Made by a program: the position numbers and the translations under genes. A stretch of 64,000 nucleotides of DNA from Actinostola sp. cb2023 (lineage: Eukaryota; Cnidaria; Anthozoa; Actiniaria; Actinostolidae): contig JAUJYZ010000746.1 in the NCBI GenBank assembly GCA_033675265.1, positions 62,001 to 126,000 on the forward strand, in the 5' to 3' direction. Under the pieces are notes generated by a model that was not told the origin of the DNA, did no database searches, and saw only the letters and a program-made list of their open reading frames with translations. This document shows positions 11,558-34,469 of this stretch, piece by piece; within the stretch, counting starts at the first letter, position 1; every line of letters begins with the position of its first letter.

Positions 11558-12080
11558 GTTAGTTCTCATTAAAATAGTTGACATTACCCTAGAAGAGTTG
11601 AGGTTTTCTTGAATTGGAGTTTAATGGTGAACATCTCTACTTTTCAAGTATAAGATTGAGATCAGGGAGAATGTATTTATTTTCACATTCATTTGTTTTC
11701 ATTCATTTTCTTTCATTTATTTATTTTTATTCATTTATTTTTATTCATTTACTTTTTTTTATTCATTTATTTATTTTTCTTCATTTCCTTTTTTTTTTTT
11801 TCATTTACTTATTTATTTATTTTTATTCATTTAATTTTTTATTTATTCATTTATTTATTTTTATTCATTTATTTATTTTTATTCATTTTTATTCATTTAT
11901 TTATTTATTTTTTCATTTACTTATTCATTTATTTATTTATTTTTATTCATTTACTTTTTATTTTATTCATTTTTTTTATTTTATTCATTTATTTATTTTT
12001 ATTCATTTATTTATTTTTATTCATTTATTTATTTTTCATTTAGTTCCATTCATTCATTTATTATTTTAATTGTGCTTCAG
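11558..12080 (+). repeat. Polymerase intron filled with ATTT/ATTC-rich repeats
   Basis: This intron starts GTTAGT and ends TGCTTCAG. From about 11690 to 12065 it consists of irregular TTTATTTA / TTCATTTA repeats. The long reading frames across it (11614-12069 and 11693-12043) are phenylalanine/isoleucine-rich artefacts. Confidence 0.8.
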
Positions 12081-13119
12081 GTATCTTGAAAGATTTCCTC
12101 AAGAAGCCGGGATCTTTCAAGGGATCAAACTAGAAGAGCTCAGCGAACTTGAGAAGCTGTACGAAATCAATATTGCCGTTTACTCTCTCGAGCCTGATAA
12201 CTCTGATGAAGATGAAGCGGAAGACTTAGACCGACCAGAAATTATAGCTCGCCTGGTGCAACGATCCCATCGCCACTATACAAGTACCCTCTACCTCAAT
12301 CTCTACAAGTACCACTTCTCCTACATCAAAAGTCTGACCCGATATTCCAAGTCCTACCAGTGTTCCAAGTGTGGGAAGTACTGGAAGAATGGGTTTAGAC
12401 TCAACCGACACGAACTCAAGTGTGAACCCAAGACTCGCCTACGATTTCCTGGGGCTGCGTACGTTATACCACCGACCATCTTCGAACAGCTGGCAGACGA
12501 AGGAATCCAGGTTCCCGACGAGTTACGCTACTTCAAGTACTTTGCCACGTTTGACTTCGAAAGTATGTTGGACAAGTCAGATCTACCTGAGAATACCACC
12601 AAGTTAACATGGGTGAACAAGCACGTACCACTAAGCTTCAGCGTCTGTTCCAATGTGCCTGGTTCCAAAGAACCGAAGTGTTTCATAACAAATGGTAACT
12701 CTCATGCCTTTATCAAACAGTTTGTGGACTATCTAGTCCAAGTAAGTCGAGAGAGTTATCGTTTGTTATTAAACGACTTTGAAGGAATCTTCGCCTCCAT
12801 TGACGAACAGATTGGAGAACAAGATAACATGCAAGAGATGGTGGAATTGTTGGTTGGGTTACAAGAAGAAAGCGAGCAAAACGATCGTGGTATTGATGTG
12901 ATGATGAGTGACGATGAAGAAGCGGAAATAGAATCTGAAAACGATGAAGACCGAGCGTTTCTTGACGATGGGGAGGAAACAGAAGAAGAAGGACCTGGGT
13001 TTTATCGAGCACTGAATAGAGACTTGGACGAAATACAAGAAGAAAGAGTAGAGGAAGAACGTCACGAAGAAACAGAAGAACAAGAGAAAAAGAAACCTCA
13101 TCCACTGGTTAAACTAAAG

Positions 13120-13955
<836 letters not shown>

Positions 13956-14103
13956 GAAAAGCTTGAGGTTTATTTACAAGAACTCCCTGTGCTTGGTTTC
14001 AACAACGGGCGGTATGATCTTAACATGGTCAAAGAATTCCTCCTCCCATATAGGTTTCGACCACGACCAGTTCTTGAAGGCCTACGAATGTCAAGCAAGT
14101 AAA

Positions 14104-14112: not shown

Positions 14113-14207
14113 GGGGAGTTTGACACTTGCATATTATGACAGTATCCCTTTCTATATTTAGAAAAAATTAGCACCGATATGTCCTTTTGTTTTCTTTTAC
14201 GACATGA

Positions 14208-15115
14208 AAATCAGCCACTAAGTTCAGTCGCTTTAAATTTCTCTAAAATAAAATGTTGACAGAGAGTCACAAAATCAGCCACTAAGTTCAGTGGCTTTAA
14301 ATTTCTCTAAAATGAATTAACAGTGACACAAAATCAGCCACTAAGTTCAGTGGCTTTAAATTTCTCTAAAATGAATTAACAGTGACACAAAATCAGCCAC
14401 TAAGTTCAGTCGATCGCTTTAAATTTCTCTAATATAAAATGTTGACAGTGACACAAAATCAGCCACTAAGTTCAGTCGATCGCTTTAAATTTCTCTAATA
14501 TAAAATGTTGACAGTGACACAAAATCAGCCACTGAACTCAGTCGCTTTATTTTTCTCTAAAATGAATTCATGCACAGTGTCACAAAATCAGCCACTATTA
14601 AGTTCAGTCGCTTTAAATTTCTCTAAAATAAATTGACAGTGTCACAAAATCAGCCGCTAAGTTCAGTGGCTTTAAATTTCTCTAAAATAAATTGACAGTG
14701 TCACAAAATCAGCCGCTAAGTTCAGTCGCTTTAAATTTCTCTAAAATGAATTGACAGTGTCACAAAATCAGCCACTAAGTTCAGTGGCTTTAAATTTCTC
14801 TAAAATGAATTGACAGTGTCACAAAATCAGCCACTAAGTTCAGTGGCTTTAAATTTCTCTAAAATGAATTGACAGTGTCACAAAATCAGCTGCTAAGTTC
14901 AGTGGCTTTAAATTTCTCTAAAATGAATTGACAGTGTCACAAAATCAGCTGCTAAGTTCAGTGGCTTTAAATTTCTCTAAAACAAAATGTTGACAGTGAC
15001 ACAAAATCAGCCACTGAACTCAGTCGCTTTATTTTTCTCTAAAATGAATTCATGCACAGTGACACAAAATCAGCCGCTAAGCGGTTCAGTGGTTTTAAAT
15101 TTCTCTAACATCAAT
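14208..15115 (+). repeat. Left subterminal tandem array of the MULE
   Basis: About 15 copies of a roughly 60-bp unit. Each contains ATCAGCCACTAAGTTCAGTG (a near-palindrome), TTTAAATTTCTCTAAAA and GACAGTGTCA (a second dyad). The array is in inverted orientation relative to the one at 28166-30280. Such arrays are plausible transposase-binding sites; that is inference. Confidence 0.9.
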
Positions 15116-15175
15116 GTCCTGTGTTATCCAAGCCTACGTAACAGAAGAAGTCCAGTGGCAACGGCAACGGAGCCG

Positions 15176-15722
15176 GTTTACTTTTTGGTCGAGGGTCGAC
15201 GAGGGTACTATGTCGACGGTCGAGGGTACTATGTCGAGGGTACTACGTCGAGGGTACTATATGTCAAGGGTACTATGTCGAGAAGGAAAAAAAAAAATTA
15301 AATACATCTACGTGACAACATATTGAAATAATAATTGCCAGAATATCTCAATGCTCTTTTACTTTGTTTGTCTCTTCATTATTGAGCTCAAAAAGTTGTA
15401 TTAAATTGGAATGAATCTAAAACTCAGTTTCCAACGATCTTTTACAACAACATTTTGCCTGTGTTCTAATGTACATGATCGGCCGGGCGTTTAAAAGTAT
15501 TGGTTGTACGTGCTTTAGCTAGGAACAAATGCTTTTCAATCCAATATTGTTGGACTCTCCAGAACAACGCCGGCTTTCATACGTACTGAATAACTGCGAT
15601 GATTTCGGCATTCAACCTATTCTGTAATTTTTTTCCTACCCTCCACTCGGTACCCCTCGACCCTCGACATAGTACCCTCGACCCTCGACTTGGTACTCTC
15701 TACCCTCGACCAAAAGGTAAAT
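15176..15722. mobile_element. Small inverted-repeat element (MITE-like)
   Basis: The left arm starts GTTTACTTTTTGGTCGAGGG and the right arm ends in its near complement CCCTCGACCAAAAGGTAAAT. Both arms contain short tandem GTCGAGGGTACTAT units (15190-15285 and, complemented, 15650-15715). There is no coding capacity. It lies between the left array and the zinc-finger gene, so it either belongs to the MULE or inserted into it; no clear target duplication was seen. Confidence 0.55.
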
Positions 15723-15792
15723 TCGTGGCGGATTGAGATACGAAGCTGTTAGTAACTTATATTTTGATCGCTGAAGTCTTGCGTTGTTTGAA

Positions 15793-16290
15793 ATGGATTT
15801 CCAATCTATTCATGGCTTGGTGTTCCTAGGAGAGGACCACTCCAAAGTAAGGAAAGAGAATTCAATGAATTTTCTGTAATGCCTCGATCAACTTAATCTT
15901 TCCATTCAAACAATATAGGCCTTTGAAGATCGCTTGCAATGGAAGCATTGCACAATTTGTAAAGTCCAGGTAAGATCTGTTGTCTTTATTTTATAACAGC
16001 ATCTGACATAACAGCAGTTTTGTTGAATACCGTCAGTCCTAATCTATACTGCCACTTATTTTTCATAGATGGCATCTGATGTGAGTTCTTTGACTCACTT
16101 TGAAGGTAAAAGGCATCAACGTTCATTGGTAAAGAATCAGATTGACACCAATTGCAAGGAATTTATCCAAAGAGGATCGTTGCCGGCCTCGTTACCTAAA
16201 TCGCAGTCAAAATCTTGGGGAAGTACTCAATGCAATGAAGTCTCTGACAATTCACTGAATCTTAATTCATATCCAGAGCATATGGATTGA
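15793..16290 (+). CDS. Three-exon matrin/U1-type C2H2 zinc-finger protein
   Basis: Three exons join in phase 0 with good splice sites: 15793-15846 (starts MDFQSIHGLVFLG, donor GTAAGG), 15919-15969 (donor GTAAGA) and 16069-16290 (acceptor TTTTTCATAG, stop TGA), giving about 108 residues. Across the exon 2/3 join it reads CTICKV-MASDVSSLTHFEGKRHQR (exon boundary at the dash, one residue omitted), i.e. C-x2-C...H-x5-H, the spacing of U1/matrin zinc fingers, which bind RNA or DNA. The C-terminus is serine/asparagine-rich without a recognised domain. It is the first gene inside the MULE, on the transposase strand. The individual exons are short and need transcript support. Confidence 0.6.
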
Positions 16291-17829
16291 ATTTAGTACT
16301 TCTTCGATATCAATGGGTGCAGTTTTCAACTTATAGTCTTAGGCCTGGTCTGAATGGAATCTTTTATGATTTACCAATGAAATTGCTAGTTTTAGCTTTA
16401 TAGTGTACGGATTGCGAGTGATTCTGAATGAAAATTAACTCTCTCTTTAGTTGGTTCACTGATGAGGAGAAGACAAAACAGGTTTTTTCAACTACAATTG
16501 GAAATCTATCAACAATTTGAGTTATAATGAGTGAAATTTGTTTTTGAAGTAATATTGTAAATCGATTGTAAACATGCAAACCTCGCTGCCCAAATGGTCG
16601 CTATGGAAACGTAACCTGAAGGTTTTCTGGCTGTTTGTTTTTCTAAAATCTTCATACTAGTTCTTGTGGTTTTTTTTCACTTCCGAAACTTTATTTTGGT
16701 TTCTTGTGTGTGATACAGCATCATACATAAAAGTCGCTTCTAAAGCCAAAGGGTAACAATTTTTGAGAAAACATTGAGCAAACTGATTCGGCTGTTAATT
16801 CAGTTTAGCCTGATTTCAATCGCCTTCTTTCGCCGCCTTTTTAGGAAAAAAAATCCTCGAAAACTTTATAACATAGCCTTGGAAAGTTTATTTTGTATTT
16901 ACAAATTGTATTTCGGTTTTGAACGAAAAACAAGGTAGACAATAGTCAAAATTACCTGCATGGCTCGGAATGAGATATACTGCTTGCGTTTTTCGCTTTA
17001 ACCACCTACACCCCCCCCCCCACCCCCCCCCCAATCTCGGCGAAAGGTGGGGACATGGATTTTCGATGGAGCCATAACTGGTTTTAGCCCCCCCCCCCCC
17101 CCATCTTGAATTATTATTTGATATTTTTGAGGTGAACTATGTGGATAAAATCCCCTCTCTAGTCGGGCCAAAGATCTAGCCTATACAAAAAAAAAATGCC
17201 CCACGTTTCCCCCACCATTCCCCGAGGTGGGGTGGGTGGGGTTACAATTGACTAGTGCATAAGTACGCGTGTTACTATAAATATAATTTTTGAGATCAAC
17301 ATAATGGTCTGATGTAATAAGCTATCGTTATACCGTTAGTCAATTTCATTCATGTTGTTTGTTGTTCGTTGTTGTTTATATGCAGTCGACAAGCCCAAAA
17401 CTCCCCAGTCGTCGAAGAGCCCGGTTTACATCCCTTTTCGCTCTTTCGAGTTTTTGTTAATTTTCCAAGCTGTCCACATATTCTTCGTGTGAAGTCTCAA
17501 GTTGAACAAAACGAGTTTCAGTCATAATTGTTTAATATCCTTTGAGAGATAGAAAAGCTTTGAAATATTTTTCAGTCACAACACTAATGAGCAAACGAGC
17601 CAGCTTCTTTTCGCTGAAAAAGCCAATTGAATGCTAGAGGAAAACTACACGCGGCCTCTGATTGGACGTCGTATCATTTTTCTCACACGTGAAAAAACAT
17701 GATACGCTGCTTCTGATTGGACATATCGTTTTTCTCACACGTGAAGAAACGATACGCGGCATCTGATTGGCTAACAATAGTGAGCGAGCGAAAATTTAAT
17801 ACACGGAATTTTAGTGAGTAATTAATCTC
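16291..17829. other. MULE internal non-coding region with poly-C runs and CCAAT/E-box hairpins
   Basis: No gene is seen. Poly-C tracts occur at 17011-17032 and 17090-17102. At 17640-17775 three copies of TCTGATTGG (inverted CCAAT) alternate with TTTTTCTCACACGTGA motifs that form two short hairpins (CGTATC...GATACG and ATCGTTT...AAACGAT). This looks like a promoter or a small foldback repeat. Confidence 0.45.
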
Positions 17830-17842
17830 AGTATTTATATCA

Positions 17843-18103
17843 ATATACGACCATCCTGAGATTGATCTAGCGATATCAGGCCTCATATGCCGATCAGATG
17901 ACGATGACTTGAACAAAGACGCTCAAGCCGCAAACAAGGTACTCCGGCAATTCTGCCGGCAGCAAGACTGGGACTACATCGACCATTCGAATATCGACAC
18001 AGAACGATACCTTAACCGCAGCGGACTGCACCTAAACAAAACTGGCACATCTCTACTTGCTAGTAACTTTATTTCTTTTATCAAAGGGGAGTTAAGGGAG
18101 TAG
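17843..18103 (+). pseudogene. LINE ORF1 C-terminal fragment, SGNH-esterase type
   Basis: The open frame ending at 18103 has ISGLICRSDDDDLNKDAQ, then YIDHSN and LNRSGLHLNKTGTSLLASN. This matches the end of SGNH/GDSL hydrolase domains found in ORF1 of CR1-group LINEs, with the final D/H-type motif GLHLN. The N-terminal part is missing because of 5' truncation. Confidence 0.6.
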
Positions 18104-18133
18104 GATTTTGCCGCCTGGGAATCTGATGTTCCG

Positions 18134-20986
18134 GTGTTACTGAGGAGTGAACAGGAATCCCCCCTACAGGGTAAGGTATTAGATAATAATGTAACAGGTC
18201 GTGGTTTGGTAATTGCAGTATTAAATATTAACAGTCTATTAGCACACATCGATGAGCTACGGATTTTTATGAGCAATTCTAAAATTGATATTCTCGCAAT
18301 AAATGAAACAAAATTAGACTCCGACATTAATGACAACGAGATCCAACTGTCGGGTTTCGAAATCACACGAAACGACCGCAGTATGAATGGTCGTTCAGGT
18401 GGCGGCGTCTGTATATATTTACGAAATAATCTAAACTACCTAATCCGAAGTGATTTATATGATGAGCAGCTTGAATGCCTTACTGTAGAAATTACCAAGC
18501 CACGTTCTAAGTCGTTTCTTGTAAGCACATGGTATAGACCTCCGAGTTCTCCTGCGAATACTTTTCACGCATTTGAGAAACTAATCGACAAAATTGACGC
18601 TGAAGCCAAGGAGCTTTACTTACTCGGGGACCTGAATGTTGACTTACTTCCAACAAGTATTAGCCACAATAAATTAACATTATCAAGTTTGTTGGACATT
18701 TACGGACTTAGCCAGATGATTTCAGATCCAACAAGGGTAACCCCCACTTCACGAACCTTGATTGATCTCTGCCTAACAAATACACCTGAAAAAATCGTGA
18801 ATTCGGGTGTTTTGCACCTTGGGATCAGCGATCATTCGCTAGTATACATGACTCGTAAAATGCACTACGAGCGTTCGGGCGCCTGGGTCATCGAAACTCG
18901 CCAATTTAAAAACTTTAACAAAACAATTTTTTTGCATGACCTTGCTCAACAACCATGGGAACGAGTAAATGACCAAATAGACCCCGACTGTATGTGGGTT
19001 GTTTGGAAAGATCTATTAATGGAAACCATTGATAAACACGCACCACTCAAGAGAAAACGAGTGAGTAAAAAGAATTCCCCATGGATTTCAAATGAGTTGT
19101 TGGGCAAGATACACAGGCGAGATTATTTAAAGAAAAGAGCAAATACTATGAATGATACAGAGTCTTGGCAACATTACAAACACGCGAGAAATGAGACAAA
19201 TAACGCAATTAGACTTGCAAAAAAAGAGTACTTTACAATTAACTTAGATAATAATAAAGCGAACCCTCGCAAAACCTGGGCGCTTATAAATGAATTAAGC
19301 TCACGCAAATGTGGAAAACGAAATGTCCAACAAATTAAAATAGATGATGAAGTTATCGAATCCCCCAGTGAAATGGCGGAGGCCTTTAATCATTACTTCA
19401 CAAATATTGGCCCTAATCTAGCAAGTGAAATACCCCCAACAAATATCGACCCGGAATGCTATCTTAAGTCCACTGACACGATATTCACTTTAAAAGCTCC
19501 CAATGAGAGCACAGTTTATAAACTACTGAGCCAGATTGACGAGAAAAAAGCGACGGGCTTAGACAAAATTCCATGTCAATTATTAAAAATGGTTGCCGAT
19601 ATTGTAGGGCCTACACTAACTGGTATCTTTAAGAAATCAATCCATACCGGTATTTGGCTAGAGTAACTCCAATTTTTAAAAAAGGCGTAAAGTCCGATCT
19701 AAACAATTACCGCCCAATATCGGTTATTCCCATTGTCTCAAAGGTTTTAGAAAAAATTGTTTATCAACAGTTATACGACTACCTTAACGAAAACAAATTA
19801 TTAACTAAGTGCCAATCAGGTTTTCGATCACTCCATAGTACCCTCACAACACTTCTTGATGCTACCAACAACTGGTCAGTTAACATTGACAATGGCCTTA
19901 TAAATGGAGTTATCTTTATTGATCTCAGAAAGGCCTTCGACACGATAGACCATCAAATAGTGCTGCAAAAACTTGCCAACTATGGGGTTGATCTGAATGC
20001 ACTGAAATGGTTCAGCTCCTATTTGAGTAATCGAAATCAAAAATGTAATGTTAACGGCTGCCTATTGTGGGGTCCCTCAAGGGAGTATACTTGGACCCTT
20101 ACTCTTCTTAACATACATAAATGACCTGCCAAACTGCCTCGACACTGCCTCTGCTAAGATGTTCGCTGATGATACCAACATTAGTGTCTCTGGTAGAAAC
20201 CTGCATGAGCTTGAGCCAGTTATCAACTCTGAGCTCATAAACCTTAATTGCTGGTTGAAAGCAAATAGGCTAAGCCTAAATATTGCAAAAACCGAGTTTA
20301 TGATAATGGGCTCACGGCAGAAACTTAGTGCTGAAGCAAATAATTACAATATTAACGTTGAAATTGAGAGCAAATCCATCAAGAGAGTCGATCACTCCAA
20401 GTCCCTAGGCGTGGTCATTGATGATCGACTCTCTTGGTCCAACCACATAAATGACCTGTGCAAAAAGGTCTCGTCGGGCATAGGTGCCCTCAGAAGGATG
20501 AGGCCCTTTATTTCAACAACCACAGCTGTACAAATTTATAATGCATTAATCCAGCCCCATTTTGACTACTGTAGTAGTGTGTGGGATGGATTAAGCAATA
20601 AATTAAGCGATAAGTTACAGAAACTCCAAAATCGCGCAGCTAGAGTTATATTGAGAGCCAGTTACTACGCCAGTTCCAAGTCTCTCCTTGAAAAGCTGAA
20701 CTGGGTCCCACTAGACAAACGCCGGCAAAAACAAAAAGCTCTCATGATGTTTAAATCCCTCCACCAACTAACCCCAACGTACCTACACGAAATGTTCATT
20801 CCTCGTAGCACAGAATATAATCTTAGAAATTCTGACAGAAAACGTGCAATGCCCAAGCCACACACAAATTATCGAAAACGTAGTTTTAGCTACAGTGGGG
20901 CTCAAATATGGAATAACTTACCATCGCGGATCAGAAATATTGACTCTATTGGGCAATTTAAAAGGGAAATAAACCGAATACTCTGA
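18134..20986 (+). pseudogene. LINE ORF2: AP endonuclease and reverse transcriptase (two frameshifts)
   Basis: 18134-19666 holds the endonuclease: LNINSLLAHIDELR, INETKLD, LLGDLNVDLL, GISDHSLVY. The reverse transcriptase follows in other frames: 19654-20065 (NNYRPISVIPIVSKVLE, FIDLRKAFDTIDH) and 20065-20986 (GVPQGSILGPLLF, catalytic FADDTNI near 20163). Breaks near 19657 and 20065 show it is dead. The arrangement and motifs place it in the Jockey superfamily, CR1/L2-like; the exact clade cannot be assigned by eye. Confidence 0.85.
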
Positions 20987-21202
20987 ACATCAGATTCCCA
21001 CACGGCAATCATGTAAATCAGTATGCAGTAATAGTACGCATATATTTTTAATTTTTATTTGTATATCACTACTTATATTGTTATGTTACTGATGATTTTA
21101 CCGTGTTTAAATAAACTATATGTATGTATGTATAATAAAATGGAGTATTTAATCACGATCTACCATCATTCCACAGTATTTAATCTGTTGTTTCTACTAT
21201 AG

Positions 21203-24200
21203 ATCTCCAAACAAAAATATAATATACAGCCGTGTAGCTCATTTCTATGCATTCAAGATGAAGATGATGAAGAAGAAGTAATGAAGTTTGCAAGGTGGAT
21301 GAACAAACTCTTTCCACCCACTTACAACAATGTTGCGAATAAAACACGCAAGACTTGTCGTGTTTTGCCATACAACGACTCTATACCTGGAGCCTTTAGG
21401 GCCTCGATGGTACCTATCGGACTTTGGGAGTACAAAAAGAACAATTCTGGTAAGTGTACTTATTTTACAAAACATAATCCAGTGAAATATAAAAAATTAC
21501 GTTAAACTGAAATCCCGGGAACCTGTGAACCTAAGGAATCCGAACTTCGCTCAATGATTTTTTGATTTTTTTAATATTTCCAAAGCCTTTTTGAATTGCC
21601 AACTCATTACTGCATTACTTTTATATTAATTAATATTTAGATTTAACAGGAACAAACGTATATACAAACATAATATTCCGAATCTCGTACTTGAGTACAA
21701 CCAAAAAAGCAAAAAGGGCTTGGCATGGTAATGATACAAAATGATACAAACGAGAAATCATGATTGCGGTTGCTCTCAGTTCTGAAACTGATCTATATTT
21801 TCTTGTGATGGCGTTCGTTTCTTAATTAGAGAAATTTTAGAGCTTTCCTGGGCTAGCCGTTTTAATCGCACTTATTATAGTTGTTTCTTTCATGAAGAAT
21901 CAATAGAAAACATTTAGTTTCATCCCCTATTTTTAAGGTTGCAACGAAAACGAAAACTATAAGCCTTTTTGTGCCGGTGGAGAAGTGGAGAGTCTTTTGA
22001 CGCCTGAGCAAGTGTCTTATGAAAGGAACAATTTTGCCAGTGGGGCAACAGCCCGGATATACAAAGGAGTTTATACGGATATGAGCGGAAATCAGCTCCC
22101 GGTAGCAGTGAAGGAGTTCGTCTTACAAATGACGCGACGCATTCAAAAGAAAGTCGATAAGGAGGCAAAGATTTTGCAAGCTCTACGTCATCCTAATGTA
22201 CTTGCTTATTATGGCCGCATAGCTGGAACTTCCACGTTGGTGACAGAGTATCTAGGAAAGAAAATCTCTGTTGGTGAAGAAAATATATCCTTCAATAGCG
22301 TAAGGGACTTACTAGATGAACTTGAAGATGACGTACCTTGGCAAGTCCGACTACACGTGGCTTTGGAAACCGCCAAGGGGCTTTCATATCTTAATGATGT
22401 GGAATGCATACATTGTGATTTAAAAGCGGCCAACGTATTTCTCGGTAGTGATGATAAGAGTGAATGGATCGTTAAAATAGGTGATTTCGGAGAATCCAGA
22501 GCAGAACACAAAGATTATATGTTCACGCAAGTCTCTTCTCATGATCCCCAGAAAACCATAGGTGGGACAGTCCCTTTTACAGCTCCTGAAGTTTTGAGAG
22601 GAGAGAAACCCACCACACGATCGGACGTGTATAGTTATGCTATGCTCTTAGTTGAACTTCTTTGTCCTTCGAGGAGTAATCCATGGGAAAAAGATTGTAA
22701 ACCGCTGTGCATTCTCTCCAACGTAATGATAGGAAGACGGCCTACTTTACCTGAAGAGGTTGAGGGACTTCAATCTGCTATTCTGTCAAGTCTTTTATGT
22801 TTGATAAAACGTTGCTGGCATGAAAATCCTACCGAAAGGCCAAATTTTAAAGAAATAACTCAAGTGTTGAAAAATATGAAAGACTTACTTGCTAATGATG
22901 AAATTACGAAACATACTGAAAGTGTTTCTCGTGCCTCAAAAGGAAACTTCGATGTAAAGGATAATTCTGCAAAAGGTTGCACAGGAATTAAAATAACAAA
23001 TTTGAGAATGCATCAGGGTACTGTACTGGAAACCGTTGGCGACATAGCTGCTTCCTTCGTAGAGGCTGGTAGTGCAATGCCAAGTGAACTTCAAGGAGAC
23101 ATGGAAAAGCACGCTAAGAAATTCGATGGATCCAATGGATGCACATTTTTTTCTGTTGCACTCGCTGATTGGTTAGAGGGTAAAGGATCTGAAATATATA
23201 TTTTCGATGCGTCACAAGAAATAAAAGAAGTCACCGAAAGATTTCTTTCGAATATTCCAAAGGTTATTAACGAAATACGGGATGTATCTTCTTACTTCAG
23301 TGTCGAAGAGGCTCTTACTATATTACGTACCGCAGGTCTTTGCGAAACGTATGACACGACAGCCTTAATGAACAGCTATAAAGGCGTAAACTCTAATGAC
23401 GGCGAGGAAGCGCTGCTTACAGGATTAAAACATTTACATGACTGTAGACCTGCATTTTCAGTGTACACCTGCCAACCATTTTCTTTCTGCTTGTGTTGCC
23501 TCCCTTGTATTAATATTGAACCACAACAAAATTGTTTCATTATTGTCGACACGCACTGCATCCCTACGACTGTAGACGGCAATGGTAATGGAGCTGTTAT
23601 CCAAATGAAATACGAGTCCAATGACATCAACAGTGCAAGTAAAACACTTGCTAATTGGATAAAGAGCCGTTTGATGTCATCGAACGTGGGTGCAAATCCT
23701 CAAGCTATTACTCTTTTGAATAAGAAGAAACCATGCACGTTTTCCCAGGAACTTAATACTACTTTGGAAAGTGATGAGGAGCTAATGGAGGCAATGTCGG
23801 GACACAGTATGCCTGCTTTCTCTCATGGTAACACACCTCCCCCCGAGATAAGAACAGCCGAAAAAGAGCAAGGCAATCACTTCGTTGACCAGGAAATAGA
23901 AGAAAAAGAGAAAGTCACAGACGCCAGCGACCAGAGAATAGAAGAAAATAAGAAAGTCAACCACTCTGGAGACAAAAGGACAGAAGAAGACAAAGAAATA
24001 ATATGGAGAGGGCATCTGACTAAGTTTGGATATTCCAACTTTCACCCCTTTCAAATGAAAGCAATAAAAGCCGTTGAAAGCAATGAAGATGTCATCGTCA
24101 TACAGGGAACAGGTAGTGGAAAGAGCATGTGCTTTCAAGTGCCATCACTATTCGAAAAAGAAAAAGGTAACGCTGGTCATAAGTCCGACTATTTCTTTGA

Positions 24201-24240
24201 TAGAGTCTCAAGTGGGGTACCTGCACTCGAAGGGTATTGA
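21203..24240 (+). CDS. TKL protein kinase fused to cysteine-peptidase-like domain and RecQ N-terminus
   Basis: Exon 21203-21449 (acceptor ACTATAG, donor GTAAGT) joins in frame to 21938 onward; a long single frame then runs to 24240. Residues are counted from 21985. The kinase domain is about 15-305, with VAVKEF (Lys), IHCDLKAANVF (HRD variant HCD, about 143), GDFGES (about 167) and TAPEVLRG; these resemble TKL kinases and all catalytic residues are present. A 200-residue domain follows with SNGCTFFSVALADWL (Cys, about 386) and FIIVDTHCIP (about 521), a Cys...Asp-x-His pattern like papain-fold deubiquitinating peptidases of the C76/OTU kind (tentative). After an acidic linker comes the RecQ start: FHPFQMKAIKA (about 685) and Walker A GTGSGKS (about 707). 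One continuous frame links all three. The frame then shifts near 24165. Coding upstream of 21203 is unknown. Confidence 0.8.
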
Positions 24241-25857
24241 TGCTGTAAAGTTGGGGCGATGTGCTGGCGATCTTTGCCGTGAAAATGAGAGCAGATTATT
24301 TGGCGGTACAGATGAGGTGTTACCACGTATGGCCTACATGACTCCTGAATATTTTGAAAAGATGGTGAGTTATTTCATAAACAACAAGGAAAAAATAAAA
24401 CTTATCGTGTTCGACGAAGTTCATGCATGATCGCAATTCGGCATTTCGATCATGCTACGATCTGATCAAAGAGATCAAGTCATTGTTTTTTGACATCCCA
24501 GTTATGGCTCTAACAGCCACTCTGAGTGAAGAATCTCTCAAAACCATATGCGGTTTTCTGAACAAACCAATAGTCATAAAGGGAACGGTCAATAGGAAGA
24601 ACATAAAGTTTAACATTCTAAAATATGAACACAAAAAGATGAAAGGTGAAAACTCTAAAATCGTATCGACACCCTGGTCGAAGCTGGCATCTGAGATACA
24701 GAAACAAATCATCGATGACCATGCTATTGTATATATGGATTTTAAAATCGAAGTCAAAGAAATGGCAGCAAGTTTGATCGAGACTGGCATAGATGATGCA
24801 ACTCCATTTTTTGGACAGGGTATGTCTCATTCCGAAAAATCTGAAACTGCGCAAAAGTTTCATGATAAGGAAATTCAAGTTCTGGTCGCAACGGAATCCT
24901 ATGAAGTAGGAACTCATAATCCCCATGTTCAATTGGTATTTCGTGTTGGTTGTATGAGGAATCTGAGTGTCCTTGTGCAAGAATTTGGCAGAGTACAAGG
25001 ACGATCAGCGATTAGGATACTGGACAAAACAGTGCACCGACGAAGAATCTAAGAAAATAATCCACAACTATTTCACTTGCTGGAAGTGGATTTACTCACT
25101 GTATACTGGTAGGTGTTTACGAGAGGGTGTACTCGATTATTTTGGAGAGACTCTCGATTCTCCTGAAATAGTTGCAAAAGGAGACTGCTGTACCTGCTGT
25201 GACGAGGAAGCTGAAAGAAATTGTAACATTCGTCCTTTAGCCCTTCTGTTAGCCAAAGCCTTAGAAGAATTAAAACAATGTTTGCAATTCAAGGATGGTG
25301 TCCCTGAAGCTAAAGTAATATCTTGGCTGAGGGGCTCTAAACAGGACTGGCTGGCCGGTGAAGAAATCCAAAGTATCATAGAGGAGTCTGAGACATATGG
25401 TAAAGGTCTAACGATGGACAGCAAGATGTATGACCAGCAAACGTGGGAGAGGATCCTCAGACAATGTATTCATCATGACATTATACAAATAAATTTCAAG
25501 TTTATAAGGGCTTCAAATTTTACAAGAACCTACAGGTTGTATTGTCTCACAAGCAACGGCCGAGAATTTATCGATAATCCTCGCAAAATATTAACTCTGA
25601 GTCCAATCATCAATCCCTTTGAAATCAAAGAGAATGCCAAACAGAGCACCAAGAAGCCTATCAGGAGGAAAAACAGAGGATGCCACATAATCCCAAAAAT
25701 CAAAGAGCTTTTGAGAAACAAAACGAATTGGACAACCATCACAAAGCGTGACGAATATGAATTTCCTGGTTTCGGTGACAATAGGCCATATGCACTAACG
25801 GGTCACGTGACCCAACTTTCTCAAATCAAGCAGCAGTGTCAAAATGAACTCCAGAAA
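24165..25857 (+). pseudogene. RecQ-like helicase, rest of the fusion gene (three frameshifts)
   Basis: Continues the helicase begun at 24010. Frame changes lie near 24165, 24425 and 24990-25050. Motifs: VISPTISLIESQV (Ia), LIVFDEVHA (II, DExH), MALTATLSEES (III), FFGQGMSH, VLVATESYEVGTHNPHVQLVFRVG (V-like) and QEFGRV (VI). The RecQ C-terminal zinc region follows (GDCCTCCDEEAERNC, near 25180), then a winged-helix-like segment and a C-terminal tail ending at 25857. Helicases of this type unwind DNA. The motif VI arginine finger region is damaged. Its last 78 coding bases lie in the left arm of the palindrome at 25780-26200. Confidence 0.8.
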
Positions 25858-26200
25858 TGAAAAGAGCAGCTCGATATTAGTAAGAAGGCGAAATTTCAGG
25901 TCATAACGTCTGACACAGGAGAAATGACATGAAATATAAAATCGAGTGTTTTCTAATAATTTGTTTGGAAAATGCATTGGATGGCATTTTTTGCCATCCA
26001 GCACATTTTTCCATACGAATCTTAATAAAATTTGCAATTTTATATTTCATGCCATTTCTGCTGTGTTAAACATTATAAGCTGAAATTTCGCCTTTTTACT
26101 AATATCGAGCTGCTCTTTTCATTTCTAGAGTTCATTTTGACACTGCTGCTTGATTTGAGAAAGTTGGGTCACGTGACCCGTTAGTGCATATGGCCTATTC
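25780..26200. repeat. 421-bp palindrome between helicase and transposase genes
   Basis: The sequence from AATAGGCCATATGCACTAAC (25780) reads back as GTTAGTGCATATGGCCTATT (ending 26200), with a centre near 25990 at GGCATTTTTTGCC. Each arm contains GGGTCACGTGACCC, itself a perfect palindrome. The left arm overlaps the helicase C-terminus, and the right arm contains the first start codon of the transposase frame. It may be a foldback MITE or an inverted duplication of the gene end. Confidence 0.85.
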
Positions 26201-28104
26201 GGAAAAGCTTTTTTATTGCTCTGATTATAAAAAAGAGTCATTCGCAGCGAGGCAAAGAGTACATTATATGTACGAAGACAATCAGTTGTCTAAACGTGGA
26301 ACTCAAACACAGCAACACGAAATCGCTATAGATGGCATTAAAACGAAGGTGAATGTACGAAGAAGGAGTTAAGGCATGTACTGCCTCAGAATGTGATTAT
26401 GTAGTATCAAATAGGCAAAAAAAGAATAAGTGTCCTAGACATAGCACTAACTATCCTCTTAAGGCCAGCGGGCATTGTCCAGCTAACCTGGTTTACATTT
26501 GGCCAGTAAATGACGACGGTAGGAGATGGGTTGGCATTACTGGACAAAAACATGATCATGAGCGCCCTGCTCCTCACAAACTCACTTGCAAGGTGAGAGA
26601 GGACATTAATAAAGCTGTTCAAGAAAATATCAGTTGTACGGCCAAAGACATTCAGAAAGGATATGGCATGACATACATGCCAGGTGAGGCATGTGCTGCA
26701 GCAAGTAACCTGGACCGTATTAGACGCCAACGCAAAATTGGCATTGAAGATTCATGTGTAGTGAACTCCCCTGAAGTAAGATCATTTGTCAGTATTATTG
26801 ACTTTGCACAAGTAAGGAAACAGGTAGAAAAACATCAGGGCGAATGCGATGAAGAAATTACCAAACGTGTTAACGACTTGGTTGGGGACTATAAAATGAA
26901 AGGTGTGGAATATATTTTTCCCCCATCACATAACCATGCATTCTTCATGGCACCATTTCAAGAAGAACAGCTCAGCAAAACCACTCATATTTTTGTAGAC
27001 ATTACGTATACTGGAAACTCTTCGTTTCCTTACCTACTGAACATGGTGACCTTTAACGAGGAATTATTGCAGTATCATGCTGTAGCTAGAGTTCTCTGTA
27101 ATAGACAAGATGGTAAATCATATGCAACTTCAATAAAAACAGTGTTCGATTACGTAACAAAGCGGCACCCTGATTTTCAGAATGGCAGAAATTTGAAGGA
27201 AATACTTGTAGATTTTGACGATGCCCAAGCAAATGGCTTCAGAGAGGCAATAGGAGAAGTCGTAGCCAATAAAATCTTAAGAGGGTGTAAAGTACACTGG
27301 ATGCGTTCCGTTCAAAGGGTCTCAAAAATGGTTTCGCAAAATAAGGAGGTAACCGATTTATTTGAGAAACTTGCAAGAAAGACCTGTACCCTGGACAGTA
27401 AAGAAGACGTTCTTTCCATTTTCAACATACTTTGTGGCCAAAAGTCCCTCAATAGTAATGATCACTACCTTGATGATATCCCTTTACGTCTCAAATGTAC
27501 GGATACTTCAAGCTGGAAAACGTTGACACACTGGGTCAAGTGGTGGACTAGGGAAAATCACTTGCGTATGTTCACCTCCGCCTTCACACAGATTGAAGAG
27601 CAGGAATGGAAGGATGGACCAGAAACTACAAATCCTGTGGAATCTATAAACCGTCAGTCCATCAAAGACAAGGGTGGTCATCTTCGGTCATTACTTGAAA
27701 ATATTTACAGAGAAGATACAAATTTTGCAGTCAAAATAACGGCTGCAAGATTGAATGTTTCAACGTCCTACAATGACAATACAACGGCTGGAAGACACCA
27801 TCGCAACTCTCTTCGGCAGCAAAGAAAAAGAAAGCGGCGATCAAGTTTTGGTGCAGATGATCAGGATACATGCCCTGTCAAAAGGAGGCATATAGAAAAA
27901 AAGGGAAAACAACTGTTGAGTACCCGCGTAAAAGTGGAATACGAAGTCCCAGAAGGAGATGATATCACATATTTAGGATGGTTTTCAAGAACAATAATTG
28001 CCTACAACAAAAACAGAGGGTACCTTGTTCATTTTGACAATCCAAAAGAGGAAGATGACTGGATAGAAGATATTAACAGCAAGGATGTCCAAATTTTAAC
28101 TTAA
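26184..28104 (+). CDS. MULE-family transposase with zinc-binding head and Tudor-like tail
   Basis: Two overlapping frames, 26184-26350 and 26353-28104, join with one apparent frameshift or very short intron near 26350. The second gives 583 residues. The N-terminus is a WRKY/FLYWCH-like zinc region (ACTASECDYVVS, KCPRH, GQKHDHERPAPH). MULE catalytic core: D in FVDITYTG (about 216), D in LVDFDDAQANGF (about 287), C-x2-H in CKVHWMRSVQRV, and E in NPVESINRQS (about 430). The C-terminus after a basic, arginine-rich linker (about 480-530) has a Tudor/chromo-barrel-like segment (YLGWFSRTIIAYNKNRGYLV, then EEDDWIEDI) that could read histone marks. It presumably mobilises the element bounded by 14113 and 30450. 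The main frame is intact. Confidence 0.82.
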
Positions 28105-28165
28105 CTTCTTAGTATTATTGATTATTATCGTTTTATGTATTTATGCATAAACATCCATCCAGAAA

Positions 28166-30280
28166 TTTAAAGCCACTGAACTTAGTGGCTGATTTTGTGA
28201 CACTGTCATTTCGTTTTAGAGAAATTTAAAGTGACTGAACTTAGCGGCTGATTTTGTGACACTGAATTCATTTTAGAGAAAAATAAAGCGACTGAGTTCA
28301 GTGGCTGATTTTGTGTCACACTCAACATTTTATTTTAGAGAAATTTAAAGCCACTGAACTTAGTGGCTGATTTTGTGACACTGTCAATTCATTTTAGAGA
28401 AATTTAAAGCCACTGAACTTAGCGGCTGATTTTGTGTCACTGTCAATTTATTTTAGAGAAATTTAAAGCCACTGAACTTAGCGGCTGATTTTGTGACACT
28501 GTCAATTCGTTTTAGAGAAATTTAAAGCCACTGAACTTAGCGGCTGACTTTGTGACACTGAATTCATTTTAGAGAAAAATAAAGCGACTGAGTTCAGTGG
28601 CTGATTTTGTGTCACACTCAACATTTTATTTTAGAGAAATTTAAAGCCACTGAACTTAGTGGCTGATTTTGTGACACTGTCAATTCCTTTTAGAGAAATT
28701 TAAAGCGACTGAACTTAGTGGCTGATTTTGTGACACTGAATTCATTTTAGAGAAAAATAAAGCGACTGAGTTCAGTGGCTGATTTTGTGTCACACTCAAC
28801 ATTGTATTTTAGAGAAATTTAAAGCCACTGAACTTAGCGGCTGATTTTGTGTCACACTCAACATTGTATTTTAGAGAAATTTAAAGCCACTGAACTTTAG
28901 TGGCTGATTTTGTGACACTGTCAATTCATTTTAGAGAAATTTAAAGCCACTGAACTTAGCGGCTGATTTTGTGACACTGTCAATTTATTTTAGAGAAATT
29001 TAAAGCCACTGAACTTAGCGGCTGATTTTGTGTCACACTCAACATTGTATTTTAGAGAAATTTAAAGCCACTGAACTTTAGTGGCTGATTTTGTGACACT
29101 GTCAATTCATTTTAGAGAAATTTAAAGCCACTGAACTTAGCGGCTGATTTTGTGACACTGTCAATTTATTTTAGAGAAATTTAAAGCCACTGAACTTAGC
29201 GGCTGATTTTGTGACACTGTCAATTCATTTTAGAGAAATTTAAAGCGACTGAACTTAGTGGCTGATTTTGTGACACTGTCAATTCGTTTTAGAGAAATTT
29301 TAAAGCGACTGAACTTAGTGGCTGATTTTGTGACACTGTCAATTCATTTTAGAGAAATTTAAAGCGACTGAACTTAGTGGCTGATTTTGTGACACTGTCA
29401 ATTCATTTTAGAGAAATTTAAAGCGACTGAACTTAGCGGCTGATTTTGTGACACTGTCAATTCGTTTTAGAGAAATTTAAAGCGACTGAACTTAGTGGCT
29501 GATTTTGTGACACTGTCAATTCATTTTAGAGAAATTTAAAGCGACTGAACTTAGTGGCTGATTTTGTGACACTGTCAATTCATTTTAGAGAAATTTAAAG
29601 CGACTGAACTTAGCGGCTGATTTTGTGACACTGTCAATTCATTTTAGAGAAATTTAAAGCGACTGAACTTAGTGGCTGATTTTGTGACACTGTCAATTCA
29701 TTTTAGAGAAATTTAAAGCGACTGAACTTAGCGGCTGATTTTGTGACACTGTCAATTCGTTTTAGAGAAATTTAAAGCGACTGAACTTAGTGGCTGATTT
29801 TGTGACACTGAATTCATTTTAGAGAAAAATAAAGCGACTGAGTTCAGTAGCTGATTTTGTGTCACACTCAACATTGTATTTTAGAGAAATTTAAAGCCAC
29901 TGAACTTAGTGGCTGATTTTGTGACACTGAATTCATTTTAGAGAAAAATAAAGCGACTGAATTCAGTGGCTGATTTTGTGTCACACTCAACATTGTATTT
30001 TAGAGAAATTTAAAGCCACTGAACTTAGTGGCTGATTTTGTGACACTGAATTCATTTTAGAGAAAAATAAAGCGACTGAATTCAGTGGCTGATTTTGTGT
30101 CACACTCAACATTGTATTTTAGAGAAATTTAAAGCCACTGAACTTAGTGGCTGATTTTGTGACACTGTCAATTCATTTTAGAGAAATTTAAAGCGACTGA
30201 ACTTAGTGGCTGATTTTGTGACACTGTGAATTCATTTTAGAGAAATTTAAAGCCACTGAGTTCAGTGGCTGATTTTCTTT
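28166..30280 (-). repeat. Right subterminal tandem array of the MULE
   Basis: About 35 copies of the same roughly 60-bp unit as at 14208-15115, in opposite orientation. Each has TTTAGAGAAATTTAAAG, AGCCACTGAACTTAGTGGCT (dyad with a 6-bp centre) and TGACACTGTCA (perfect dyad). Variants (CCACTGAA/CGACTGAA, GTCAATTC/GAATTC/CACTCAACATT) recur in blocks, which indicates expansion of multi-unit segments. This array is more than twice as long as the left one. Confidence 0.92.
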
Positions 30281-30288
30281 TGTAAAAC

Positions 30289-30427
30289 TACAATTATTTT
30301 CATAACAGACAAAGTTGCTCGCTTAATTTTTTTCTAAAACAGAACATTTGACATTCATACAATTATTTTCATAACAGACAAACTTGCTCGCTTAATTTTT
30401 TTCTAAAACAGAACATTTGACATTCAT
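30289..30427 (+). repeat. Two direct ~70-bp repeats at the MULE right end
   Basis: The segment starting ACAATTATTTTCATAACAG and ending ACATTTGACATTCAT occurs at 30289-30357 and again at 30358-30427, just inside the terminus. Its complement resembles the left end (TTAGAAAAAATTAGC near 14160). Confidence 0.85.
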
Positions 30428-30450
30428 ATTATGTCATTACATATACTCCC

Positions 30451-33177
30451 GGTTTTCTCCCGTACGAATGGCTTGATGACATTGCAAAACTCGACCATAC
30501 AGAACTTCCCCCACATGCTGCCTTCTTCTCTACCCTGAAAAACACCAACATAACGACTGACGAGTATGCCTCCTGCCAGCAAGTATGGAAAGATAAACAG
30601 ATGGTGAACTTCCGTGACTTCTTGATTTGGTATAACAACCTGGATGTGGAACCCTTTGTGATAGCGGTTGAAAAAATGATGACCTTTTGGCGTGAGAGAA
30701 AGATTGATATGTTTAAAGATGGTGTGTCCGTACCTGGATTGACGATGAAATACCTCTTCTCTTCCCTCCCCCGTCACACGTATTTTGCCTTGTTCGAAGA
30801 AAAGAACAAAGATTTGTACCACACTTTCAAAGAAAACAACACTGGGGGTCCATCGATAATATTCCATCGTTATCATGAAGCTGGCAAGACCAAGATCAGA
30901 GAAGTGGAAATGAGTGCTAAAGGAGAGGAAGCCAAAGAATGTAAGAAAATCCTTGGCTATGATGCTAATGCTTTATATCTTTGGGCCATCATGCAAGAGA
31001 TGCCAACAGGGAGCTACACTAGAAGAAGAGTGGAAACAAACTTCAAACCTGAAAGTTCACGAAGAATGGCAGATGAGTGGTGGGCTTGGGAAGAAAATGA
31101 ACGAAACATCCACATCAGACAACTAAACAACACGGAGAAGAGAATTGGAGATCGAAGACTACCAGTGGATGGGTTTCACAGTGAAAGTCGTACTGTTTTT
31201 CAGTTTCATGGTAAGCTAATCTATTCATTCATTCTACAATACATAGTCATTCATTCATTCATTCATTTTTTTTTTCATTCCTTCATTCATTCATTCATTA
31301 ACTCCTCCATCCATTCATTCTTTCATTCATCTATTCATTAATTCATCCATCCATCTTTTTTATTATTTTTTATTATTTTTATTTTATTTTAATTTTTTAT
31401 ATTTTTTATTGATTTTATTATTATTATTTTTTTTTTTATAATTCTCACCTTTTTTTTACTTGCTCTTTTAATTTTCTCACCGATAGGTTGCTATTGGCAT
31501 GGTCACCAATGTGAGTTGAATCGAGGAAAAGAAATGAACGCCACAAGAAAGAAACCCATGAGTGAACTGAGAGCGGAGACCGATGCCAACACGCAATACA
31601 TTCGCAGCCAGGGATATCAAGTAATTGAGATGAGAGAGTGCGACTGGAAAAGAATGAAGCAAACGATTCCTCTCCTTCAAAGCTTCCTGGACTCTGAATT
31701 CAGCCGTCCCTTAGATAGATGTTGGACCCTTACCCAGGAGCAGATTCTCCAAGCGGTGATCAACAACACTATCTTTGGTGTGGTTGAGTGTGACATTAGA
31801 AACCCGGAAACCTTGAGGGAGAAATTCAATGAGATGTGCCCCATCTTCAAGAACACAGAAATCAGCCGTGACGATATTGGAGAGTACATGCGGAAGTTTG
31901 CTGAGGAGAACGACATAATGCCGAGACCGCGTCGGAGTCTGATTGGGAGTTTGAAAGGAGAGAAGATCTTGTTGGCCACACCCCTCCTAAAATGGTACCT
32001 GGAGCATGGTCTTATTGTAACTAAAATCTATCAAGTCGTGGAATATACTCCTGAAACCTGCTTTGAATCCTTTGGAGAGGCGGTTTCCAACGCACGAAGA
32101 GCCGGTGATGTTGACCCCAGCAAGGCTATCATAGCTGACACTATGAAACTCGTAAGTCCACGATTGATTGTACCACAAATGTACTGACAAAATATTGAGT
32201 AATCGATCAAACACTCATATGGAGTATGGACTAAAAACATCATATTCCTAGTTCGTCAAAAAATGTATTGATCAATAATAGAAATATTGATACATATCCT
32301 TTATTTTCTCATAGGTTGGAAACTCTAGTTATGGTAAAACCATCACCAACCAATTGAAGCACCATAATGTTAAATTTTGTAGTGATACCGAAGTCTCGGC
32401 ATTGATAAACACTCCGTTTTTTCGTCAACTGGATTCCATTGACGAAGATACTTATGAGGTTCAGTCGGCGAAGAAACGGATCAACTTGAATCTACCGATT
32501 CAAGTGGGTTATTTTGTTTATCAGTACGCAAAACTTCGAATGCTACAATTTTATTATGACTTCCTGGATAAGTGACTTCCAATACTGTGAGATGGATACT
32601 GACAGGTAAAAAACTGAACTGAACTAGACTAAAACCGAGTAACAACCTAAACTAACATTAAATAAATAAACTATAGTTGTTTAATTTAAAAAAAAAAAAA
32701 ATTAATATTTTTTCTTTCTTGATAATCAACAGTGCTTACATCGCCATTTCTGCCGAAAGCTTTGAAGAAATCATCCGACCAGAGATAAGAGAAGAATTTG
32801 AGGCTGAAAAACACGACTGGCTTCCCCGTACAGACACAGCTGAACACCGGGCCTTCGATAAACGAACGCCTGGATTATTTAAGATAGAATTTGAAGGTCA
32901 GGGTATTATCGGGTTGTGTAGCAAAACCTACTACTGTTTTGGAAGAAAGGATAAGTTTAGTTGTAAGGGGATCAGGAAAAAGTGTAATGAGATTAATAAG
33001 GAAAAGTTCCTTAATGTTCTGTTGAATAGAGAAAGTGCCTCCGGGATCAATCGAGGGTTTCGCGTTGTGAATAACAGGATGCATACTGATGCGCAAGTTA
33101 GAAATGGGTTCAGCTATTTTTACCCCAAGAGAAAAGTCTTAGCCGATGGGATAACTACTATCCCTCTAGAGATATAA
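30451..33177 (+). pseudogene. Polinton A protein-primed DNA polymerase B, 3' half (four exons)
   Basis: Continues the gene cut by the MULE; the 9-bp target copy is 30451-30459. Exons: 30451-31210 (donor GTAAGC), 31487-32151, 32315-32605 and 32733-33177 (stop). Motifs: PYEW just after the insertion, ILGYDANALYLWAIM (motif A, near 30955), VGNSSYGKT (motif B, at the start of the exon at 32315), and MDTD|SAY (motif C) split exactly by the last intron. A small deletion with frame change and stop near 32570 breaks the palm between motifs B and C. All catalytic motifs are recognisable but the gene is dead. An AATAAA lies near 33351. Confidence 0.88.
31211..31486 (+). repeat. Polymerase intron with ATTC repeats
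   Basis: This intron starts GTAAGC and ends CCGATAG. It contains (ATTC)n near 31241-31345 followed by T/A-rich sequence. Like two 5' introns of this gene it is dominated by pyrimidine-rich simple repeats. Confidence 0.8.
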
Positions 33178-33450
33178 GCTGAAAATTATTCAAAGCTAAA
33201 TTAAACTTTTGTAAATAACCTTGTGATACTCTTGAATGAATTTTTTGTATATACTTGTAAATAGGTACTCTAGATCTATATCTCAACTGATGAAGGGTAA
33301 AAAAATAATGTACATTGATTAGGATATTCATTTCATTCTTTTGACATGCTCAATAAACATGTGTAAACCCTTAAACACTGATTGGTTGATTTTATCCGAG
33401 TTGTATAGTATATAAAGTGCGCACAAAACCCTTTCCATTCATTTAGCACT
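33178..33450 (+). promoter_or_regulatory. Intergenic region with TATA/initiator promoter of the ATPase gene
   Basis: TATATAAAG at 33409-33417 is followed about 24 bp later by TCCATTCATTT (33434-33444), and the ATG is at 33451. The same arrangement occurs before the next gene (TATAAATAC at 34087, TCCATTCATTT at 34112, ATG at 34127), which suggests a shared late-promoter design. Confidence 0.6.
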
Positions 33451-34091
33451 ATGGATCCGAGGTTGAAACATCCTTTTGGTGCGGTCATGGCCGGTCCGAC
33501 CTGTTCCGGGAAAACGTATTTATTGAGAAAAATCTTAGAGCGAGGGGAAGAAATGATTGAAGGCGCGCCGCAAAACATACTTTGGTGTCACGGTATGCAT
33601 CAACCAGCACACAATGAAATGATTGAAACAATACCAAACCTTACGTTTCTGGAGGGTTTGCCGAGTGATCTAGAGTCACGAATTGATCCTACGATAAGAA
33701 ATATGGTGGTCATTGACGATTTGATGAACGAACTGAGCAATGATAAGCGTTTGACGAATATTTTTACAAAGGTTGTCATCATTTGAACTTATCGTGCGTT
33801 TTTATACTTCAAAACATGTTTTGTCAGGGTAAAGAATTGCAAAACGTTTCTCTCAACGCCCATTATCTATTGATTTTCAAATCGCCGCGCGATAGCAGTC
33901 AAATCACGCATTTAGCCAAACAAATGTATCCTGGTCATGTTAAGTTTATGCAAGAGGCCTTTAATGATGCGACCGCAAAGCCTTATGGGTATTTACTCTG
34001 TGATCTGAAACCTGATACTCCAGAAGAGTTTCGACTGAGAACCAATCTATTCCCTGAAGAGAAACAATACGCTTACGTCAGAAAGGTATAA
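33451..34091 (+). pseudogene. Polinton A DNA-packaging ATPase (FtsK/A32-like), frameshifted
   Basis: Genome-packaging ATPase of the FtsK-HerA/A32 type, which would pump DNA into capsids. The N-terminal piece (33451-33775) holds Walker A GPTCSGKT (about residues 15-22) and Walker B MVVIDDLM (about 88-95). The C-terminal piece (about 33783-34091, next frame) has LSCVFILQNMFCQGKEL and SLNAHYLLIFKSPRDSSQI, conserved in the family. The frame changes near 33775, so no full protein is made. The stop codon TAA lies inside the TATA box of the next gene. Confidence 0.85.
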
Positions 34092-34126
34092 ATACAGAAG
34101 CCAAGCTGACATCCATTCATTTGACC

Positions 34127-34454
34127 ATGAGTCGCCGTGCGAAGAAGAACTATCACCATCTTAAAGTCCTGGCTAGCAGCAATCCTCAACAGGTCAAAAC
34201 CATAATTAAGACTGCGGACGATTCTTTGATTCATACTCTCTGCGAGTGCACTTACAACCTGTTGAATTCAAACCTTCCCATCAGTAAGAAACAAAAGAAG
34301 AAACTACATCCCTATAAAAAAACATCTGATCCAATTAGCTAGTAAGCAGGTGACTTTTCCAAAGAAACGCCAAGTTCTTGTGCAAAAAGGAGGAAATTTT
34401 CTTTCGATTCTATTACCACCAGCGATCGCACTCTTGGAACAGTTTTTAAAATGA
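34127..34454 (+). pseudogene. Small basic Polinton protein with hydrophobic tail (frameshifted)
   Basis: Begins MSRRAKKNYHHLKVLA; the body has LIHTLCECTYNLLNS, typical of the small conserved gene that follows the ATPase in many Polintons. A frame change in the A-run at 34315-34322 separates the C-terminus, which reads LVQKGGNFLSILLPPAIALL, a hydrophobic helix that could be membrane-active. The role is unknown; position suggests a virion protein. The ATG at 34127 is preferred over an upstream alternative because of the promoter motif just before it. Its TGA overlaps an ATG (ATGA, 34451-34454) that may start the next gene. Confidence 0.65.
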
Positions 34455-34469
34455 ATCACGCCAAAAAAA

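Follow-up and report, generated by a model that had tools for sequence, protein, structure and literature searches.

A probable Mutator-like DNA transposon of a sea anemone that joins kinase, deubiquitinase-like, RecQ and transposase domains in one protein

Why should a protein kinase, a peptidase-like domain and a RecQ helicase share one reading frame in a sea anemone genome? The question is raised by a 64,000-nucleotide stretch of Actinostola sp. cb2023 (contig JAUJYZ010000746.1, positions 62,001 to 126,000), which we call the window and whose first letter is position 1 of all coordinates given here. An initial annotation, made from the letters of the window, had reported the fusion and placed it in a transposon. 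Beyond that, we find that a transposase open reading frame (ORF) at 26353-28104 belongs to the same protein, and that the likely ends of the element lie at 14139 and 30424. Our preferred reading, which we consider probable, is of a Mutator-like cut-and-paste DNA transposon, present here as an autonomous copy that has decayed; its transposase would form the C-terminal part of a polyprotein with about 1950 residues. With the same degree of belief, we read the order of that polyprotein as a RIPK/IRAK-like kinase, a viral tegument-like deubiquitinase, a RecQ helicase with a Zn/RQC-like part, a Cys/His-rich region, a DDE transposase and a weak Agenet-like tail. That the kinase, deubiquitinase-like, helicase and transposase parts form one chain is very likely indeed, by our own judgement rather than by calculation.

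The uninterrupted frame described in the initial annotation, from a kinase through a Cys...DTH segment into a RecQ Walker A motif, is present: according to the ORF list, 21937-24240 (plus strand) is a single open frame of 767 codons. By its ORF, Pfam and tblastn evidence it holds the kinase, the deubiquitinase-like domain, a linker and the start of RecQ, and homology stops near 24165. The frame far exceeds chance length, the maximum in 300 mononucleotide shuffles being 159 codons. Frame residues 32-311 (22030-22869, plus strand) match the Pfam family PK_Tyr_Ser-Thr with an expect value (E) of 1.4e-39, and the K, E, HCD, N, DFG and APE motifs are all found, as expected of the complete tyrosine kinase-like (TKL) kinase that had been claimed. 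Thirty solved structures are related to this kinase at E 1e-20 or better; the top one is labelled EGFR (1.2e-28), and RIPK2 or IRAK4 account for the other 29. Judged by its complete motifs and these nearest solved relatives, the window kinase is a TKL kinase of RIPK/IRAK-like type. Pfam also recognises the start of a DEAD domain at residues 704-739 (E 1.3e-6), with the Walker A motif GTGSGKS. Thus the proposed search of the frame with domain models recovered the kinase and the helicase start, and the segment from residue 311 to residue 704 has no Pfam match. A possible upstream exon at 21203-21449 (plus strand), drawn from an ORF and splice sites chosen by eye, has no Pfam match and is left uncovered by the tblastn tiling of the Stylophora protein described below.

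What, then, is the middle segment? The initial annotation had allowed that it might match no peptidase fold, and structure prediction bears on this point. The domain at 22975-23739 (plus strand) is predicted to adopt a papain-like fold near M48, closest to the viral tegument-like deubiquitinases (VTD, C76-type), and the nearest solved deubiquitinases include a herpesvirus tegument enzyme. Its candidate catalytic residues are a Cys (codon at 23140) and the Asp (23548) and His (23554) of a DTH motif at 23548-23556. Across the alignment the Cys is conserved in all 8 rows that cover it and D-x-H in 10 of 10. The Pfam family Herpes_teg_N matched one of 8 middle domains (P0060), with E 0.003 and 17.7 bits, below the cut-off of 25. 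A model of the domain built from two sequences, with a predicted local distance difference test score of 32, was uninformative and was set aside. The predicted fold and the catalytic residues support a viral tegument-like deubiquitinase with putative ubiquitin cleavage; it is to this level, and no further, that the guess of ubiquitin editing made in the initial annotation is borne out.

The helicase had been thought to continue to 25857, and here the annotation needs correction: no single frame does so, because the copy is frameshifted. By tblastn, the helicase pieces lie in frame 2 (24161-24424), frame 3 (24423-25010) and frame 1 (24985-25824). The helicase with its Zn/RQC-like part occupies 24046-25824 (plus strand; Pfam, tblastn and profile evidence), with frame changes near 24165, 24424 and 25007. 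In the RecQ test, the profile of A5 matched BLM at E 2.7e-57 and 1oyw, which we take to be E. coli RecQ, at E 1e-55. The window itself matches RQC at E 3.5e-6 and RecQ_Zn_bind at E 0.0014, the latter under the cut-off. On these matches the helicase part is classed as RecQ, with core motifs and a Zn/RQC region.

The relation between the helicase and the transposase is shown by P0057, a Stylophora pistillata protein of 2040 amino acids that is named RecQ helicase at NCBI. It is colinear with the window over 21973-28035 by tblastn: amino acids 43-803 correspond to 21973-24165, 802-891 to 24161-24424, 893-1093 to 24423-25010, 1102-1369 to 24985-25824, 1371-1423 to 26205-26363 and 1427-1984 to 26362-28035. 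This ordered tiling indicates that the window carries a single gene, and that the transposase ORF is the C-terminal part of the kinase-to-RecQ protein. The initial annotation pointed to RecQ genes known as cargo of some large transposons; here RecQ does lie in a transposon, but as part of one polyprotein with the transposase and not as cargo. The gene is broken by frame changes near 24165, 24424, 25007 and 26363, and by a palindromic insert at 25780-26199 (193-nt arms, 90% complementary, 34-nt loop) that forms a gap in colinearity between the helicase and transposase parts. By eye, this 420-bp palindrome looks like an inserted foldback element or a miniature element flanked by TA. With its frameshifts and its interruption, the window copy cannot make the polyprotein: it is dead and decayed.

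To which transposons does the element belong? The transposase part (26205-28104, plus strand, frame change near 26363) has a Cys/His-rich N-terminal region, a DDE domain with CxxH and a weak Agenet-like C-terminus, and its catalytic codons are D 26998, D 27211, C 27286, H 27295 and E 27640. In a 27-row alignment, gaps aside, the first D is conserved in 27/27 rows, the second in 26/26, C and H each in 25/25 and E in 23/24 (one K). A regular-expression count finds D-71-D in 25 of the 27, and 23 of these also have CxxH. Mutator-like elements are expected to have a DDE domain with C/DxxH between the second D and E, and an 8-11 bp target-site duplication; the window element has the former and, in its one copy, a 9-bp duplication. 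In our judgement, which was not computed, membership of the Mutator-like superfamily is likely.

The whole element, delimited by terminal repeats and duplication, spans 14139-30424 (plus strand; 16,286 bp including a nested insertion). Mutator-like elements have terminal inverted repeats that are often long; here imperfect ones lie at 14139-14183 (plus strand, the match starting about 11 nt inside the end) and, by local alignment to the left end, at 30377-30424 (minus strand); the alignment score is 15, and 8 of 5000 random window pairs were as good. Inside them, Tandem Repeats Finder identifies a 59-bp repeat array at 14207-15115 (plus strand, 9 forward copies at >=45/59 matches) and an inverted array at 28161-30276 (minus strand, 32 reverse copies). 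The putative 9-bp target-site duplication CATATTATG lies at 14130-14138, with an exact copy at 30425-30433. Alone the duplication is modest evidence, because a shared 9-mer arose in 53 of 2000 flank shuffles and two further 9-mers are shared, at 14104/30451 (outside) and 14190/30273 (inside); it gains strength from abutting the terminal repeats. Ends at 14139 and 30424 with a 9-bp duplication are thus supported, as read from one DNA copy.

The kinase-peptidase-RecQ fusion recurs in other genomes, where it is joined to the transposase. A query with the middle domain returned one protein among 3209 candidates (P0001, 611 amino acids), 51% identical over the kinase and middle domain. The transposase ORF retrieved 53 proteins, of which five carry Helicase_C by precomputed Pfam; one of the five, P0049, begins with the last part of the middle domain and continues through RecQ to the transposase. 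A transposase-scored search of long proteins gave 11 homologues, and 7 of the 11 carry kinase, DEAD and Helicase_C domains by precomputed Pfam. Kinase and helicase are thus one chain in these relatives, and not the separate genes that would have undone the annotation. The named relatives are Stylophora, Montipora and Exaiptasia, which point to a cnidarian host. No relatives were confirmed by a single genome-contig scan or by scans of viral contigs, for which the queries were the transposase, alignments of the kinase-middle region and of the transposase, and two suspected polymerase pieces.

A tree of the DDE part, computed on 26 of the 27 rows (P0040, 131 residues, left out), divides into two clades with support 100/100. 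The main clade has four lineages, namely the window, P0055 with P0057, P0059 with P0062, and P0060 (kinase C-lobe only), and each has at least one member with kinase, deubiquitinase-like and RecQ sequence. Support is 88/96 for the fork with P0060 and 82/72 for the window with the P0055 group, and so the branching order of the four lineages is not firm.

A number of observations weigh against reading the locus as a Mutator-like element with a conserved four-enzyme chain. The first concern the superfamily. The Pfam family MULE matched 10 of the 27 members at E <= 0.1, the best at 6.8e-4 and none listed above 27.6 bits, and the transposase ORF of the window has no MULE match. These weak scores would suit an element of the AcademH or a related helicase-bearing superfamily, to which the kinase and deubiquitinase were added by lineage. 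AcademH has a helicase and duplications of 9 or 10 bp (PMC10045372), and the window element shares both; the likeness is one of description. Nevertheless, MULE is the sole transposase family among the matches listed (25 of 27 Pfam families) and in a second such listing, and we consider an AcademH-type placement unlikely.

The second set concerns the ends: the outermost 11 nt of the terminal repeats are unmatched, and both ends and duplication are read from one DNA copy. A single copy, together with the NCBI label of RecQ helicase on the Stylophora protein, would fit a multi-copy domesticated host gene family, with the repeats and duplication belonging to something else. Such a family would not account for the complete DDE and CxxH residues, the flanking inverted repeats, the 9-bp repeat and the repeat-rich setting, and we hold it to be improbable.

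The third set concerns the homologues. P0001, encoded on a contig of 2844 nt, stops just past the middle domain, and a kinase Pfam domain is found in 0 of the 53 transposase matches, which at about 320-1020 amino acids are too short for the whole chain. Only 5 of the 11 long homologues (P0055, P0057, P0062, P0063 and P0064) have a complete kinase; in P0059 only the C-lobe is present, in P0060 the C-lobe is seen by alignment only, with no kinase Pfam domain, and P0065 lacks the kinase start and most of the transposase. Three of the 11 begin inside or downstream of the deubiquitinase, and member counts may include repeated assemblies.

The identities between relatives bear on whether the added domains are maintained. 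For P0055 / P0057 against P0062 they are 69% / 66% in the kinase, 48% / 53% in the deubiquitinase, 51% in the RecQ core, 48% / 46% in the transposase core and 25% / 29% in the linker. Other pairs give the kinase no advantage: kinase versus transposase core is 65% versus 67% for P0055-P0057, 68% versus 71% for P0062-P0065, 40-43% (72 residues) versus 46-52% for pairs with P0060, and 28-41% versus 26-39% between clades. Judged from protein identities of relatives, then, conservation of the kinase is similar to that of the transposase and far exceeds that of the linker. Exchange of the N-terminal part between families could contribute to this pattern. We also compared P0060 with the other main-clade members: they are 28-31% identical in the deubiquitinase and 46-52% in the transposase core, so that its modules are out of step, which could reflect module exchange or different rates.

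Mutator-like elements tend to pick up host gene fragments, according to the accessible text of PMC6446971, and the kinase and deubiquitinase might be inert passengers of this kind, as in Pack-MULEs. The element does contain one candidate, possibly a captured host gene fragment: a two-piece C2H2 fragment (15891-16291, zf-met E 1.5e-4, spliced by eye) upstream of the nested insertion. Passengers would not be expected to keep their order and catalytic motifs while the transposase cores are 46-48% and the linker 25-29% identical, and we regard this explanation as very improbable, the least credible of those considered here.

The final points against a conserved chain come from the distant clade. 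P0063 and P0064 carry kinase and RecQ and lack the deubiquitinase; three further rows of the clade are too short to show domain content. The kinases of P0063 and P0064 keep HGD and have DYS or DYA where DFG is expected, and therefore may be altered or inactive; the closest solved kinase is RIPK1. The deepest fork thus has a kinase in this position on either side. Cross-clade kinase identity is 28-41% (29-32% over longer overlaps), and the window kinase matches P0063 with 90 bits by tblastn, the same order as its 78 bits to RIPK2. The kinase may thus have been acquired once, or separately in the two clades.

How might such a chain work? The biochemical steps, and whatever roles the domains have in transposition, are all inferred. 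The DDE part would cut the element ends and insert the element with a 9-bp stagger; RecQ would act on the repetitive ends, or on branched intermediates, by unwinding or remodelling them. The deubiquitinase could guard the protein or its partners against degradation, a protective idea like that proposed for the Helitron deubiquitinase in the accessible part of PMC9741609. The kinase could control the complex by auto-phosphorylation, or act on host repair or defence proteins, and in this way kinase signalling may be coupled to transposition, as the initial annotation imagined. In our judgement, uncomputed, the kinase and deubiquitinase are likely to be active in intact copies; any specific role for the domains is doubtful on the same informal scale. 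The two enzymes might instead act mainly against host innate immunity, through RIPK-like signalling and ubiquitin, and not in transposition. The nearest solved kinases, mostly RIPK2 and IRAK4, with RIPK1 for the distant clade, and a herpesvirus tegument enzyme among the nearest solved deubiquitinases would agree with this; yet likeness of fold or family does not reveal targets, and their fusion to a transposase speaks for an effect in cis, on the complex. We think an immune function rather unlikely. Under the reading of a Mutator-like element, a kinase retained in one chain with the transposase suggests a cut-and-paste element that uses phosphorylation to regulate itself or its host. More tentatively, there may exist a class of animal DNA transposons with its own signalling module, a RIPK-like kinase and a herpes-tegument-like deubiquitinase, in which one protein moves DNA and switches host ubiquitin, innate-immune or damage signalling in its favour, as large viruses do. 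Because the chain is found again in divergent lineages, its catalytic motifs kept, the need for each domain and the targets of the kinase and deubiquitinase are testable.

The element has a crowded neighbourhood. The insertion nested within it is a long interspersed nuclear element (18104-20986) whose endonuclease and reverse transcriptase frames are broken; as judged by eye, it ends near 21140 among short tandem repeats. Remains that look like a Polinton-type element flank the transposon at 11602-14102 and 30421-39225, including an integrase with chromodomain (38089-39225) and a double-jelly-roll match at E 0.0075, under the Pfam cut-off. Read by eye from sequence motifs, pieces on both sides of the transposon would belong to a Polinton DNA polymerase B (PolB) gene, its putative insertion target; the five suspected PolB pieces matched no polymerase family in Pfam. 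Farther away, stretches at 1298-7000 are repeated 2337-2338 bp apart, with minus-strand ORFs recurring on them, and are adjoined by an integrase ORF (7276-8070, rve E 3.8e-15) and a DDE_Tnp_4 ORF (170-1270, E 3.7e-17). An ORF at 50910-52121 contains DUF7869, a domain of unknown function (E 1.3e-17).

With which known systems should the element be compared? As far as the accessible text of the MuDR survey (PMC6446971) goes, the Mutator-like (MuDR) superfamily resembles it in the DDE domain with CxxH, the 9-bp duplication and the repetitive ends; a cnidarian group (MuDR-6_HM) appears there with the entry 'Ovarian Tumour Gene', an OTU domain, and for Rehavkus a minisatellite is given ahead of the 3' terminal repeat. 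A count of the words helicase and kinase in its main text gives 0 for each. KolobokH, as described in the available part of PMC9587614, also combines a transposase and RecQ in one DNA transposon. It differs in having TTAA duplications and RecQ downstream, as against a 9-bp repeat and RecQ upstream in the window; it is described from fungi only, and that portion of the paper mentions no kinase or deubiquitinase, unlike the window chain. In the literature, mainly open papers without Repbase entries and hence weak evidence, we found no kinase in a transposase polyprotein and no four-enzyme chain. RecQ and deubiquitinases are already known, each by itself, in other transposons; the kinase in the transposase chain appears to be new.

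For the deubiquitinase, the closest comparison is with the Helentron-type Helitrons, which, in the accessible portion of PMC9741609, carry a viral tegument-like deubiquitinase with D-x-H and a helicase in the same protein. The window element shares this transposon-encoded VTD-family domain alongside a helicase. Helentrons differ, as described there, in being rolling-circle elements with an HUH endonuclease, a 5'-3' helicase and no DDE transposase, and a word count of the main text gives 0 for kinase, RecQ and MULE. The same source remarks on cnidarian VTD fusions to transposon-associated domains, whose names it does not give in the part available, and the element described here may provide a defined context for them.

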